A stretch of DNA of 33,879 bases from a virus, in IMG/VR virus record IMGVR_UViG_3300020478_000031, positions 1 through 33,879 of that record. The stretch is one strand, 5' to 3'. The translations under genes were made by a program, and so were the position numbers. The notes beneath the pieces are model-generated. The model worked only from the letters and a program-made list of their open reading frames with translations, made no database searches and had not been told where the DNA came from. Of the stretch, positions 25,454 through 30,105 are shown one piece after another (the first letter of the stretch is position 1; the number at the start of each line of letters is the position of its first letter).

Positions 25454-26335
25454 ATGGCAGATGCACCAGTACTGCAAGTACAGTTAGATGTTATCAATCA
25501 GGAGATTGAGTACAACGGTACACCAAAGACTATTCCTGAAACATATTGGAAGGACACTCTCACTCCAATGCTATATCCTTTATGGGACAGTGATAAAGAT
25601 AAACTTATCACATTCCAGTGGTTTACCAATGATTCATATACTGCCAAGCGTAGGAAGTATGTAAAAGATTTCAAGGCTGGCACATTTAAGTGGGTTGACT
25701 ATGAAATGGAAGCAGTTGGTGCTACTGAAGCAACTGCATTTAAAGATAAGTTAATTGAAGCATTTTATTTAATTGATTCACTTGAGAATCAAGAGTTCCA
25801 AGATGAATTGGCTAGAATGTATTCTAAGCAGAAGTCAGTTACACCAATGAGTGTAAGACTAGCAAGAGATTTTCTCTTAGATGAAACAGATTGGACACAG
25901 ATAGCAGATGCACCAATTGATGCTGATCTTAAAGCACAGTATGTATTATACAGACAAAAATTAAGAGAACTAACTGATTCTGATGAGTTTGTTAATGACA
26001 CAGAGAATACTAAGTTCCCTATATCTCCAGAGTTTTACAATAAAATACACAAGGTAGACTTCCCAACTGAAGATTATCTTGCAACTGACTCACAGTTTAT
26101 TGAGATGGGTAAGCATCGTCTTAATAAGTTTAAAGATAAGATAGCATATTTCTTGACACTCAAGTCAGAAACTGATAAGACATACTTCAGTGATCTATTA
26201 ATACAGTATGATAGAATCAAAACAACTAAAGTTCTTGCTAGTGATGGACTGCTTAGTGATGTTGAGGATAATAGAGAGTTCTTAGAGAAACTCATTCAAC
26301 AAGCTAATGACACTCTCGATGATTTAGACACATGA
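25454..26335 (+). CDS. Conserved-looking phage protein, 293 residues, function unknown
   Basis: I do not recognise a family. The protein is acidic and mostly alpha-helical by composition, with no signal peptide or membrane segment. It contains WKDTLTPMLYPLWDSDKDK early, a central FYLIDSLENQEFQDELARM helix and a C-terminal helix ending in DTLDDLDT. ATG is chosen because it follows GGAGA (13-base spacing) and a late promoter. The stop overlaps the next start as ATGA. Late-promoter linkage after fibre genes makes a virion or assembly role (for example fibre chaperone) possible, but nothing in the sequence proves it. Confidence 0.8.
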   Translation: MADAPVLQVQLDVINQEIEYNGTPKTIPETYWKDTLTPMLYPLWDSDKDKLITFQWFTNDSYTAKRRKYVKDFKAGTFKWVDYEMEAVGATEATAFKDKLIEAFYLIDSLENQEFQDELARMYSKQKSVTPMSVRLARDFLLDETDWTQIADAPIDADLKAQYVLYRQKLRELTDSDEFVNDTENTKFPISPEFYNKIHKVDFPTEDYLATDSQFIEMGKHRLNKFKDKIAYFLTLKSETDKTYFSDLLIQYDRIKTTKVLASDGLLSDVEDNREFLEKLIQQANDTLDDLDT

Positions 26336-26688
26336 TTATACAAGGAAACGAATTATCACAATTTGATTTGATGGAGTATTATGCTAATCGTAACCAATGT
26401 ACGTTAGTATACTTCGATCTTAGCACGTATAATGCTCTCAATGCAACAAAGAAAGCAACGGTGAATACATGGTATGAGGAGTTCATCGATGAGTATGTAC
26501 TTGACATCATGAAACAAGGGGTGTATACTACTATCAGGTTTGAAACAGACGAGGCTGCAACAGTGAATGCTGCTGCTTGGTTCCCCAAGCAAGCAGACTG
26601 TCCTGACTCAGACCATTTCATAAATGCGTATGTCGTTGATACATACGGTGATATAGTATGGCAAAACGTACCAGAAAACCCCAACTAG
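26332..26688 (+). CDS. Hypothetical protein, 118 residues
   Basis: No recognised family. The protein is a soluble mixed alpha/beta acidic polypeptide with aromatic-rich segments (TVNTWYEEFIDEYVLDIM; NAAAWFPKQADC). ATG overlaps the preceding stop as ATGA, indicating coupled translation. Its last 31 bases overlap the next gene in another frame. It probably belongs to the transcript starting near 25431. Confidence 0.72.
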   Translation: MIIQGNELSQFDLMEYYANRNQCTLVYFDLSTYNALNATKKATVNTWYEEFIDEYVLDIMKQGVYTTIRFETDEAATVNAAAWFPKQADCPDSDHFINAYVVDTYGDIVWQNVPENPN

Positions 26689-26885
26689 AGAAATTAGAAA
26701 ATCCATATCTCTTAGAAGATAAGTTTATGATGCCAGGTTTTGTTACCAAACAACCGTATGGTGAATGGGCTGCTGTACCTATCATGGGTAAGCATAACAG
26801 ATATATGGTCATACATAATGGAGAGTTACTCAAGGCATGCACTTATGACGTTGCCTTTAACCTAATGATGAAGCATTACAAATGA
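26658..26885 (+). CDS. Hypothetical basic protein, 75 residues
   Basis: No recognised family. The N-terminus is Lys/Arg rich (MAKRTRKPQLEKLE) and is followed by a compact beta-like part (GEWAAVPIMGKHNRYMVI). The basic start could contact nucleic acid, but this is a guess. It starts inside the upstream gene and ends in an ATGA overlap with the first methyltransferase, so it belongs to the same translational train. Confidence 0.7.
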   Translation: MAKRTRKPQLEKLENPYLLEDKFMMPGFVTKQPYGEWAAVPIMGKHNRYMVIHNGELLKACTYDVAFNLMMKHYK

Positions 26886-27835
26886 GAAACACAGTATTAT
26901 TTGGTGACTGTCGCAAAACACTTGGTACACTCAAGGCACAAATCACTACTGGTATATGTGAAAGACCACGAATGTGTGTTACATCTCCACCTTACTATGG
27001 TCTACGTGACTATGGTGGTGAGGATGATCAGATTGGTCAAGAGCAGACACCAGAAGAGTTTGTTAATAATTTAGTAGAAGTATTCAGAGGTGTACGTGAT
27101 GTGCTCACAGATGATGGAACTCTTTGGCTTAATATTGGGGATAGTTACTATAATTACAGGCCAGGGCGAGGACAAGGACTGGTTAAACAAACAGTCTCAA
27201 ATACAAAACAAGATTTACCAGATATGTGTCCACGTAGAGGAAATAAACTCGAAGGACTAAAAGAGAAAGATCTAATTGGCATACCATGGATGTTAGCATT
27301 CGCATTACGTGCGGATGGTTGGTATCTAAGACAAGATATTATTTGGAACAAACCAAATCCAATGCCAGAGTCAGTTAAAGATAGATGTACTAAATCACAT
27401 GAATACCTATTCTTATTATCTAAAAATAAAAAGTATTTCTATGATAATGAAGCAATCAAGGAACCAGCAAAAGACTGGGGTACACGTGACAGATCCAATG
27501 GGAAGTATCACAATGAAGGAACTGGACTCTCACCACATACAGGACTCAACAAATCTTATAAGACAAAGAATAAAAGATCTGTTTGGTCTATAACTAATAA
27601 ACCCTACAAGGGTGCTCATTTTGCAGTGTATCCACCTGATCTCATTGAACCATGCATTCTAGCAGGATCAGAGGAGGGTGATATTATACTTGATCCATTC
27701 TTAGGATCAGGTACTACTGCAATGGTTGCTAAGAAACATAATAGAGCATATATTGGGTGTGAACTCCATAAGGACTATGCCAGTTTACAAACTGACCGTA
27801 TTAACAGCATACCCAACAAACTTCCGCTATACTAA
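26882..27835 (+). CDS. DNA methyltransferase, N4-cytosine/N6-adenine type (beta class order)
   Basis: The protein has 317 residues. The catalytic motif SPPY is at 35-38 (in TSPPYYGLRDYG). The SAM-binding motif DPFLGSGTT lies near the C-terminus at 271-279, followed by the NRAYIGCELHKDY strand typical of the N6_N4_Mtase family. Catalytic motif before SAM motif is the beta-class order. SPPY is frequent in N4-cytosine enzymes but also occurs in N6-adenine enzymes, so the modified base and target site are open. A central variable part (residues about 160-250) is the likely target recognition region. The ATG overlaps the preceding stop (ATGA). No restriction enzyme of a standard type is adjacent, so an orphan phage methylase protecting or marking DNA is likely. 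Confidence 0.9.
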   Translation: MRNTVLFGDCRKTLGTLKAQITTGICERPRMCVTSPPYYGLRDYGGEDDQIGQEQTPEEFVNNLVEVFRGVRDVLTDDGTLWLNIGDSYYNYRPGRGQGLVKQTVSNTKQDLPDMCPRRGNKLEGLKEKDLIGIPWMLAFALRADGWYLRQDIIWNKPNPMPESVKDRCTKSHEYLFLLSKNKKYFYDNEAIKEPAKDWGTRDRSNGKYHNEGTGLSPHTGLNKSYKTKNKRSVWSITNKPYKGAHFAVYPPDLIEPCILAGSEEGDIILDPFLGSGTTAMVAKKHNRAYIGCELHKDYASLQTDRINSIPNKLPLY

Positions 27836-27840
27836 TAGTG

Positions 27841-28003
27841 TTGAGGGATAACGGTTCTCTAGCCCCAGTACTGGGGGTTCAGGTGTAAGCGATTCCCTAG
27901 AGGTAAATTTGGGCATATAGGTGAAACCTTGCAGATGCCCCGTTCTCTCAACTGCGGTAACTCCCTTTGGTAGTTTCAGAGTTAGCGGCGATAGGAAACT
28001 ACC
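27841..28003 (+). ncRNA. Candidate structured RNA / cis-regulatory element before the HNH gene
   Basis: Complementarity visible by hand: a closing helix 27841-27848 plus 27851-27854 with 27940-27951 (12 pairs, one 2-base bulge, one G-U); an internal helix CTCTAG 27857-27862 with CTAGAG 27897-27902; inside it a CCCCA/TGGGG hairpin (27863-27876); a second internal helix GGGCAT 27911-27916 with ATGCCC 27935-27940, topped by AGGT-GAA-ACCT. Next comes a 9-pair hairpin GGTAGTTTC 27969-27977 with GAAACTACC 27995-28003, whose loop GAGTTA (27979-27984) matches TAACTC (27958-27963), giving a pseudoknot. One outer pair competes at 27940. Known cyanophage RNA classes such as manA and wcaG are also elaborate and pseudoknotted; I cannot assign this one to either. 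Confidence 0.6.
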
Positions 28004-28024
28004 ACAATATCATTATTGATTATC

Positions 28025-28450
28025 ATGCCTTCAACAGTATCACAACAACAGAAAGCAAGATTCTTTGCTGAAGGACACACACTCCCTACATGTGTCAATG
28101 ATGGATGTAATAATAATGTACAAGTAAGAGAGTGGAAGTACTGGTCATTCAAATCAGAATGCTCTAGTTGTGCCACTGCACGTAAGAAAGGAGTTGATAG
28201 ACCTGGTGTTACAAGACATAAAAAGAACTATTGCGAAAATCATGATGGTCATCTAGGATGGACATGTCCTGTTCCTAGTCTATCATGGGCAGGGTTTGAG
28301 AATAGTCTCGATTTAGATCATTTAGATGGTGACCACCACAATAATGTTCCTGATAATGTCAAGACATACTGTAAACTATGTCATGGACGCAAATCATTAA
28401 TAAATGGAGACTGCAACAGTAACAAATCATCATCAAGGAGCATAGGATGA
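28025..28450 (+). CDS. HNH endonuclease with zinc-binding cysteine pairs
   Basis: The protein has 141 residues. The C-terminal HNH motif reads LDHLDGDHHNNVPDN, then TYCKLCHGRKS, with D98-H99, H104/H105, N107 and C116xxC119-H120, like free-standing phage HNH homing endonucleases. Further Cys pairs at C23/C28, C46/C49 and C70/C81 suggest an N-terminal zinc-binding DNA-reading part. The ATG at 28025 is preferred; an in-frame TTG at 28016 would add three residues. No clear ribosome site precedes it, and the structured element at 27841-28003 ends 21 bases upstream, so translation may be controlled by RNA folding. The stop overlaps the second methyltransferase start (ATGA). It may be a homing enzyme lodged between the methylase genes. 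Confidence 0.82.
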   Translation: MPSTVSQQQKARFFAEGHTLPTCVNDGCNNNVQVREWKYWSFKSECSSCATARKKGVDRPGVTRHKKNYCENHDGHLGWTCPVPSLSWAGFENSLDLDHLDGDHHNNVPDNVKTYCKLCHGRKSLINGDCNSNKSSSRSIG

Positions 28451-29226
28451 TCATACATGACGATGCATTGAACAGTTTACATGACATGGATGGTGATAGT
28501 ATACAGTTAACGTGTACTTCTCCTCCATATTATAATGCAAAAGCATATGCACAGTGGGCAAATTATGATCTATATCTTAGATTTCTTGAGGATATATTTC
28601 GTGAAGTATTCAGAGTAACTGAACAAGGTAGAATGTGTGCTGTCAATTTATCACCAGTCATACAAGCACGTGAGTCAAGAGCACATGAGAGTAAGAGACT
28701 TGCGATACCATTCCACTTCTTCAGTATTATGGAGAGATTGGGATGGCAATACATTGATGATATTATATGGTTGAAACCAGAAGGATCTGCTGTTAATCGT
28801 AACGGTGGATTCTTTCAGCATCGTAAACCAGTAGCATATAAACCAAACCTTGTTACAGAGACTATACTAATATTCAAGAAACCTGCACCATTCCTTATAG
28901 ATAAGACAGTACGATCATGCTTGCCTGAGATACTTGAGAAGTCATTAGTTCCTGATGGGTATGAACGTAGTAATGTATGGTGTTTCAATCCTGAGACTAC
29001 ATCAAAGCATTTAGCACCATATCCTCAAGAACTGTCTGATAAGATAGTCCAATACTATAGTTTTGTGAATGACCTAGTTCTTGATCCATTCATGGGGTCA
29101 GGAACTACTGCCATATCATGCCTAGATTATAACAGAAGGTATATTGGTATTGAAATTCATGAAGAGTATGTTAAAATGGCGAATGATCGTATCAAACGTC
29201 ACACACCTCTTAAGAAATTCCTATGA
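28447..29226 (+). CDS. Second DNA methyltransferase, N4/N6 type (beta class order)
   Basis: The protein has 259 residues. The catalytic SPPY is at 25-28 (TSPPYYNAKAYAQW) and the SAM motif DPFMGSGTT at 213-221, followed by RRYIGIEIHEEY. Motif order matches the upstream methylase, but the protein is about 58 residues shorter and the central part differs, so it is a distinct enzyme, probably with another target, and not a recent duplicate. Translation is coupled to the HNH gene by ATGA overlap, and the next gene starts in the same way. A conserved DIIWLKPEGSA segment resembles the DIIWNKPNPMP segment of the first enzyme. Modified base is not decided by sequence. Confidence 0.9.
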   Translation: MIIHDDALNSLHDMDGDSIQLTCTSPPYYNAKAYAQWANYDLYLRFLEDIFREVFRVTEQGRMCAVNLSPVIQARESRAHESKRLAIPFHFFSIMERLGWQYIDDIIWLKPEGSAVNRNGGFFQHRKPVAYKPNLVTETILIFKKPAPFLIDKTVRSCLPEILEKSLVPDGYERSNVWCFNPETTSKHLAPYPQELSDKIVQYYSFVNDLVLDPFMGSGTTAISCLDYNRRYIGIEIHEEYVKMANDRIKRHTPLKKFL

Positions 29227-29426
29227 CCGACCAAGCATCCATTGACCATCATGAATCTCAAGATGAGAAATGGAATCGTGGACTAGACTTATTCATTGAG
29301 TCAGTACAGAAACCAGACAACCAATTGCGTGGTTGTGCTCATAACCAAAAGTGTTACAATGAGTTAATGGACGTAAGAGAGCATGTATTAGAGTATTTGT
29401 ATACTATACGGAGAACAATCAAATGA
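29223..29426 (+). CDS. Hypothetical protein, 67 residues
   Basis: No recognised family. Small, polar and mostly helical, with two cysteines in GCAHNQKCYNELMD and a charged N-terminus (HHESQDEKW). ATGA overlaps at both ends place it firmly in the methylase-HNH translational unit. Confidence 0.7.
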   Translation: MTDQASIDHHESQDEKWNRGLDLFIESVQKPDNQLRGCAHNQKCYNELMDVREHVLEYLYTIRRTIK

Positions 29427-29779
29427 AAAGCAGGAAGACAATGCTATCACAAGCAATTCAAATGTATCTTGATGATGCATCTGTTGATGAGTTTCATTCT
29501 GATTTAGAGTCAGAGTTAGAAAGATTACGCTCATATCATCAACAACATGCTGATGATGCAAATAAAATGAGTGGTAAAGCACCTAAGACAATATTATTGA
29601 ATGAGGAGGACTGGAATCAGTGGGGTGAAGACCCTGACTGGACACCATCACCTGAAGAAGGGTATGAGTATACTCCACCAACTACTATACCTGGTAAAGC
29701 AGAGCAAAAACAGTATAAGTATGCTGCTCACGTTACCATGTCAGATATAGCAAGATTTCAACGAGGTAGCAGCCTCTAG
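29423..29779 (+). CDS. Hypothetical acidic protein, 118 residues
   Basis: No recognised family. The N-terminal half is helical (MLSQAIQMYLDDASVDEF, then ESELERLRSYHQQH) and could form a short coiled coil. The C-terminal half is rich in Trp, Pro, Glu and Asp (EEDWNQWGEDPDW; PSPEEGYEYTPPTT), suggesting disorder. It starts by ATGA overlap and is the last gene before the promoter-hairpin region at 29811-29926. Confidence 0.72.
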   Translation: MKSRKTMLSQAIQMYLDDASVDEFHSDLESELERLRSYHQQHADDANKMSGKAPKTILLNEEDWNQWGEDPDWTPSPEEGYEYTPPTTIPGKAEQKQYKYAAHVTMSDIARFQRGSSL

Positions 29780-29810: not shown

Positions 29811-29838
29811 TTGCATCTGACCCACAATACACTATAAT
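29811..29838 (+). promoter_or_regulatory. Sigma70-like promoter TTGCAT-16-TATAAT
   Basis: TTGCAT (29811-29816) and a perfect TATAAT (29833-29838) are separated by 16 bases. The likely start is the A at about 29845, 7 bases after the -10 box, which is the first base of an ATG and nearly the base of the hairpin beyond. It lies in a gene-free gap and would serve the zinc-ribbon gene cluster or a small RNA as an early promoter using host RNA polymerase. Confidence 0.65.
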
Positions 29839-29844
29839 ACATTC

Positions 29845-29895
29845 ATGGGAAACAAAACAGGCATCCAATGGGTAGGACATGCTTTCCTACATTAA
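29845..29895 (+). pseudogene. 16-codon ORF resembling the start of phage Gp37/Gp68 (DUF5131) proteins
   Basis: An ATG at the predicted transcription start reads MGNKTGIQWVGHAFLH and then stops. From memory, phage Gp37/Gp68-family proteins begin with K-T-G-I-x-W-T-D-x-T-[FW]-N-P. The K-T-G-I-Q-W and H-x-F positions agree, but the match is only about 11 residues long and there is no continuation. It could be a gene remnant, a leader peptide or chance, since the same bases form the hairpin arm. Confidence 0.2.
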
Positions 29896-29926
29896 TCATT
29901 GAATGTAAGTCCTGTTTTTGTTTCTC
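29845..29926 (+). ncRNA. Long imperfect hairpin at predicted transcript 5' end (small RNA or leader)
   Basis: The arm GGGAAACAAAACAGG (29847-29861) pairs with 29911-29926 (one extra T bulged at 29919, one G-U pair). Inside it CAATG (29866-29870) can pair with CATTG (29897-29901), and GTAGGA (29872-29877) with TCCTAC (29885-29890), giving an interrupted rod about 80 bases long. The predicted start of transcription coincides with its base. The T-rich stretch is inside the 3' arm and not after it, so it is not a normal terminator. Either a leader controlling the gene at 29947 or a small RNA. Confidence 0.5.
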
Positions 29927-29946: not shown

Positions 29947-30105
29947 ATGAACGTTAACGGACGTACAAGAGCACCAAAGGACGGCAGATGGATTATCTGT
30001 CCTCATTGTGGTGGTGCATCAAGAGTTTACAATTTTGCTTTCAGTTCATTATGGTGCATGTATTGCCAGAATGAAGCAGAAAAGCATGAGTGGATAGTCG
30101 CATGA
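29947..30105 (+). CDS. Zinc-ribbon microprotein, 52 residues
   Basis: ATG at 29947 follows GAGG (29939-29942) by 4 bases. The protein has a CPHC pair (C18, C21) and a CMYC pair (C37, C40), 15 residues apart, a zinc-ribbon layout. The N-terminus is basic (NGRTRAPKDGRW). Such small ribbons in phages usually bind nucleic acid or transcription/translation factors, but no partner can be named. It overlaps the next gene by ATGA. It is the first gene after the promoter at 29811-29838. Confidence 0.72.
   Translation: MNVNGRTRAPKDGRWIICPHCGGASRVYNFAFSSLWCMYCQNEAEKHEWIVA

Follow-up and report, generated by a model that had tools for sequence, protein, structure and literature searches.

The window analysed here is the whole 33,879-nucleotide stretch of the IMG/VR virus record IMGVR_UViG_3300020478_000031, and features are given on its plus strand unless stated otherwise. 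From 25454 to 29779 the window carries a run of open reading frames overlapping by a few bases, at 25454-26335, 26332-26688, 26658-26885 and 26882-27835 on one side and at 28025-28450, 28447-29226, 29223-29426 and 29423-29779 on the other side of a gap at 27836-28024; the initial annotation had called this the only gap in the run, and the ORF coordinates agree. The gene upstream of the gap (26882..27835) is an intact N6/N4 DNA methylase gene (PF01555, E 4e-56). The gene downstream (28025..28450), which would be the first gene of an RNA-led transcript, is HNH endonuclease-like (PHROGs HNH families, E 8e-5 and weaker; 58 related loci), its 141 aa product having weak HNH matches and no other Pfam domain. 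A predicted -10 box, TATACT (27828..27833), overlaps the methylase stop codon 6 nt before the first helix of the RNA, P1, with no good -35 element present. The RNA ends 21 nt (28004..28024) before the HNH ATG at 28025, with no Shine-Dalgarno sequence in this spacer, and a repeat search of the gap recovered inverted repeats at 27840-27848/27944-27952, 27857-27862/27897-27902, 27911-27916/27935-27940, 27955-27963/27979-27987 and 27968-27977/27995-28004; the repeats, the spacing and the missing ribosome site are all as first described. No tRNA or tmRNA was detected in the window by ARAGORN.

The RNA in the gap consists of two independently occurring parts, joined here. In blastn searches of annotated phages, the region of part 1 (about 27841-27951) matched unannotated intergenic DNA of the Prochlorococcus phages P-SSM2 and P-SSM5 and of the single-cell marine viruses AG-345, and the pseudoknot region (about 27950-28005) matched ACG-2014f, S-SM2, Bellamy, S-B05, S-SKS1 and others, indicating that the two parts occur apart and happen to be combined in the window. 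Pattern scans of IMG/VR found each core in at least 120 stretches.

Part 1 (27840..27952) is a three-way-junction RNA. It is closed by helix P1 (27840-27848/27944-27952 plus 27851-27854/27940-27943), and holds a P2 arm (27857..27902) and a P3 arm (27911..27940), the latter with covarying pairs and the apical hairpin AGGUGAAACCU. The P2 arm is formed by CUCUAG (27857-27862) and CUAGAG (27897-27902), enclosing a socket hairpin (27863-27876) and a conserved strand (27877-27896). Exact reverse complementarity of P2 was kept in 130 of 138 copies across 10 sequence versions (CUACUG/CAGUAG, CCUAUG/CAUAGG, CUCUAG/CUAGAG, CCAUAG/CUAUGG and others), with two-sided changes in 4 of its 6 pairs. In the covariation set, which comprised 23 distinct short-insert copies only, 98.5% of cells were paired and 13 pairs showed two-sided changes; none of 500 shuffles matched the pairing percentage, the number of two-sided pairs or the covariation score, and the count of pair types was not above shuffles (281/500). 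The sequences were gathered via an exact core, so that the invariance of this core is partly a selection effect. One further contig (L020, reverse strand) holds two copies of part 1 about 0.9 kb apart.

Part 2 (27952..28003) is an H-type pseudoknot, with two crossing helices that are both supported by covariation. All copies share the order CUG, S1, L1, S2, A, S1 partner, GCGAUAG and S2 partner, in which S1 has 9 positions, L1 4-5 nt (CCYUU) and S2 8-9 pairs. In the window S1 (27955-27963/27979-27987) comprises 8 pairs and a conserved G.G mismatch, S2 (27969-27977/27995-28003) comprises 9-10 pairs, L1 is CCUUU (27964-27968) and L3 is GCGAUAG (27988-27994). Thus, the pseudoknot proposed in the initial annotation is present, but is larger than the 6 pairs given there. 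S1 reads CGGUAACUC/GAGUUAGCG in the window and CUGCAACCC/GGGUUGGAG, CUGUGACCC/GGGUCAGAG, CUCUAAUCC/GGAUUAGGG, CUGCUAGUC/GACUAGGAG and more besides elsewhere; the G.G mismatch occupies its third position, where one lineage has a C-G pair instead. Two alignments, of 30 and 42 distinct sequences, had 94-95% of cells paired and 11 two-sided pairs each (5-6 in S1 and 5-6 in S2), and in neither did any of 500 shuffles match the pairing percentage or the covariation score. Sliding the S1 and S2 partners by 1-3 columns lowered pairing from about 95% to 16-56%. Pairing of S2 served as a filter for the collection and pairing of S1 did not; both covary.

By folding energy the region is unremarkable (z = -0.93 for the whole gap, -1.74 for part 1), and the case therefore rests on comparison. 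As these z-scores are unconvincing, and minimum-energy folding fails to recover the covarying helix P2, we adopted the comparative structure. Compensatory changes in other phages, well above both shuffled and slid controls, uphold the original proposal of a complex structured RNA with a pseudoknot; this RNA is real and was previously unnamed.

We found no match to either core, searched exactly, in 84,980 bacterial and archaeal genomes, and rejected a host origin for the RNA on these grounds. As a control of specificity, a search pattern one base shorter gave a single match (L310), judged by eye to be due to chance. The window had no match at gathering score among 4227 Rfam families, nor did 16 further loci with other modules, and a search of the gap region at E values up to 10 returned nothing meaningful. 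The suggestion of a phage class such as manA (RF01745) or wcaG (RF01761) was thus not borne out by the covariance models at either threshold, and no known RNA family or intron was found that explains the region; the same search recovered manA in another locus (L002, 90 bits). The RNA is absent from Rfam and unannotated in the records of P-SSM2, S-SM2 and ACG-2014f, and no description of it was found in the open literature searched, most subscription papers lying outside that search. Two unannotated gaps of P-SSM2 (L001, AY939844; 55,815-56,116 and 56,567-56,932) hold several tandem structured modules, one of them immediately following an N6A methyltransferase gene, which parallels the window.

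The RNA lies next to promoters. In pseudoknot leaders without part 1, promoters matched a mean of 10.2 of 12 consensus positions, 90% scored at least 9/12 (random sites: 1.4%), and 108 of 115 had their -10 box exactly 5 nt upstream of P1. Among part-1 loci, 34% scored at least 9/12 against 3% of random sites, and where a promoter was detectable its -10 box preceded P1 by 6 nt in most, 52 copies; some part-1 copies, those with GTGTGAG, had no clear promoter beside P1. With this spacing, transcription is predicted to begin at the first or second nucleotide of P1, so that no unpaired 5' tail would remain.

Without part 1, a promoter is usually followed by a short 5' hairpin, the pseudoknot and, after 3-4 nt, tRNA-Arg(UCU) or tRNA-Pro(UGG). 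We found 114 of 184 non-redundant pseudoknots ending a few nucleotides before a tRNA (mostly 3-4, gap lengths in this count being possibly one base too long), which was Arg(UCU) in 98 cases and Pro(UGG) in 16. In the window's clade, part 1 occupies the 5' hairpin and a protein gene lies downstream, and no tRNA lay within 700 nt of any of the 27 pseudoknots with part 1. Among annotated genomes, the leader is seen in S-SCSM2R (before tRNA-Pro), in RB11-B (before a tRNA-Arg at the head of an array) and in S-SM2, as well as in S-SKS1, with a protein gene downstream. Arg(UCU) and Pro(UGG) account for nearly all tRNAs beside the leader, and no other lies within 12 nt (L002, L127-L243). In ACG-2014f, promoter, hairpin and pseudoknot are followed by tRNA-Arg, a manA RNA and tRNA-Asn. 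The manA RNA of L002 (3132-3342) lies between tRNA-Arg and tRNA-Asn in an operon headed by the pseudoknot leader, indicating that manA is not confined to the 5' UTRs of metabolic genes. In four further loci (L008, L013, L016, L085) a conserved CGAGGAGATGGATGTGCCTCGTGGGTCGC, which can encode MDVPRGSPPLKELTSA, is found downstream of the pseudoknot.

We additionally compared the junction between methylase and HNH genes among relatives of the HNH gene. It is empty in three (L252, L253, L257), is occupied in four (L255, L256, L258, L259) by part 1 carrying a long insert, and in one (L254) holds a different P1-borne module and a pseudoknot with other stem letters. The -10 box is retained at empty junctions, including L252 and L257, and both genes are intact at all junctions compared. 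Thus, the RNA is neither an intron nor an obligate partner of the HNH protein, and the leader has been gained, lost or exchanged as a cassette.

Exchange extends to the interior of the RNA. The inner hairpin of part 1 behaves as a socket, replaced among copies by 66 distinct inserts of 13 to 230 nt, of which the short hairpin of the window is one; these lengths are often not multiples of three, which excludes a coding explanation. Of 58 long inserts, 36 are carried on CC(C)GAA...AGUAGG(G), whose letters resemble a bulged-G (sarcin-ricin-like) motif. The same modules recur elsewhere, GGATCTATGGTTGTCTC being seen 12 times in the part-1 socket and 22 times outside it. P1 of the leader is itself a socket, tetraloop-sized in most copies, filled by part 1 in 21 and by other modules in the rest, so that its contents range from a tetraloop to more than 120 nt around a constant clamp and pseudoknot. 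Further unrelated folded modules lie inside the leader P1 of four loci (L338, L359, L385, L394).

A second promoter-proximal hairpin leader is present in the window at 29847-29926 (z -4.24, 0/200 shuffles). It has a long outer helix, a -10 box (TATAAT, 29833-29838) 8 nt upstream, and a GGC...GUAAGUCC socket with a CCAAUGGGUAGGACAUGC...AUCAUUG module also seen elsewhere (L012), and it ends 20 nt before an ORF starting at 29947. The arrangement of leader plus socket is therefore not unique to the RNA in the gap. It is possible, if on balance doubtful, that marine phages run a combinatorial RNA system, in which a fixed 5' clamp and pseudoknot are combined with what look like sockets (the leader P1, CCCGAA...AGUAGGG of part 1, and GGC...GUAAGUCC) and folded modules are swapped and nested between genomes, yielding rapidly diversifying transcript leaders or decoy RNAs against host nucleases or defences.

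The comparisons above establish the structure, the placement beside promoters, the spread, the swapping of parts and the empty sites; the function is inferred. We tentatively favour, at a little under even confidence, a protective role, in which this 5'-terminal leader would shield the transcripts of the phage from nucleases of the host. Directed by the -10 box that overlaps the methylase stop, transcription would begin with the 5' strand of P1; P1 (enlarged here by the part-1 junction), one linking G and the long pseudoknot would then fold in order ahead of the HNH-methylase message. RNase E prefers free 5' ends, and RNase J is a 5'-3' exonuclease. A paired extreme 5' end with a pseudoknot behind it may keep both enzymes off phage transcripts, be they precursors of tRNAs or messages, while host RNA is being destroyed in the course of infection, and the unpaired CUG, CCYUU, A and GCGAUAG together with the G.G mismatch may build a resistant fold or bind a partner. 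Host RNase E rises in infection by cyanophage P-SSP7, and antisense RNA has been proposed to shield the transcripts of that phage (PMC9692554), and RNase J is present in cyanobacteria (PMC10989914). The predicted start within P1, and the constancy of clamp and pseudoknot despite variable P1 contents, are consistent with shielding, and the placement of the leader before both tRNAs (114/184) and protein genes fits a gene-neutral role. However, RNase P normally removes tRNA leaders, so that protection of precursors would be brief; the HNH operon can do without the leader, as its absence from the empty sites shows, and the part-1 copies with GTGTGAG have no clear promoter beside P1. Conserved loop letters, moreover, go beyond the needs of a simple stabilising hairpin, which makes a role in trans and a role like that of the put RNAs of phage HK022 serious rivals.

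In the first of these, which we consider unlikely, RNase P would cut the leader off at the tRNA, or a different nuclease would do so ahead of a message, and the leader would then work as a trans-acting small RNA, for instance a decoy or regulator directed at a host nuclease or defence system, and module swapping would reflect an arms race. Leaders ending 3-4 nt before tRNA-Arg or tRNA-Pro would indeed be released by RNase P as RNAs of about 70 nt, the 66 inserts at one socket look like diversification, and T4 also makes stable RNAs, RNAC and RNAD, of function not known (PMC9697503). Against it, part-1 copies, that of the window included, have no tRNA downstream and often a start codon about 20 nt away, making them also 5' UTRs, and no target or partner was found.

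Rather improbable, by analogy with HK022, is that the nascent leader binds its own RNA polymerase and suppresses pausing or termination through tRNA arrays and long operons. HK022 putRNA is about 70 nt long with two structured arms, putL lying just downstream of PL (PMC9378689); the leader is similar in size and promoter-proximal, it heads operons of untranslated tRNAs, and its conserved unpaired bases suggest a specific partner. When the leader is set against the put plan of two stem-loops after an early promoter, its placement fits, but its second element is a pseudoknot, with no known sequence relation to putRNA; putR works 270 nt from its start, which leaves the strict +1 placement unexplained.

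A riboswitch, or some other element that controls the downstream operon in cis by sensing a ligand or protein, might be read from the conserved unpaired residues beside covarying helices in a 5' UTR, and cyanophage manA and wcaG have been proposed as riboswitch candidates (PMC2864571). We consider this quite improbable, as this one pseudoknot is found ahead of tRNAs and of HNH, antitoxin-like and unrelated genes, with no consistent function, no terminator or alternative fold linked to the RNA was seen, and the RNA is lost without trace in sister genomes. Finally, the idea, also raised initially, that the RNA works with the HNH protein, whether as an OMEGA/HEARO-like guide or as an intron with a homing endonuclease, draws on its position directly before the HNH gene and is scarcely credible: it is refuted as a general role by close relatives whose same junction is empty or holds other RNAs, by the many HNH relatives (most of them) with neither part upstream, and by most RNA copies adjoining tRNAs or other genes. 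As specific candidates, a group I intron was rejected for lack of an Rfam match, with both flanking ORFs complete and uninterrupted and the gene ends kept in empty alleles, and a HEARO or OMEGA RNA with IscB for lack of an Rfam match and for the small protein with its weak HNH matches.

The family spans hundreds of marine virus contigs and isolates such as P-SSM2, S-SM2 and ACG-2014f. By its predicted position, the leader pinpoints where phage tRNA operons begin, offering a direct handle on how cyanophages make and protect tRNAs and messages, and swapping folded modules in and out of fixed sockets would be an unusual instance of RNA domain shuffling. Among known systems, manA and wcaG are likewise structured, come from marine T4-like cyanophages and lie between genes or in 5' UTRs (PMC2864571), manA even sharing a tRNA operon with the leader in ACG-2014f, but they have other helices and conserved letters, and the leader sits at the transcript start. 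GOLLD and ROOL are also ornate phage non-coding RNAs, some near tRNAs, but are several times larger and have no promoter-adjacent pseudoknot. RNAC and RNAD, located in the T4 tRNA region, are comparable as phage-encoded small RNAs; the leader differs in sitting at a promoter and in occurring also without tRNAs. The 5'-terminal stabilising stem-loops of bacterial mRNAs, such as the ompA leader, share a paired 5' end that blocks 5'-end-dependent decay, but need no conserved loop or pseudoknot and are not shuffled among loci. The closest functional analogue would be HK022 putL and putR, structured phage RNAs of about 70 nt, putL just 3' of an early promoter, that act in cis on whatever follows; they differ in having two stem-loops in place of a hairpin and pseudoknot, in their host group, and in showing no association with tRNAs.
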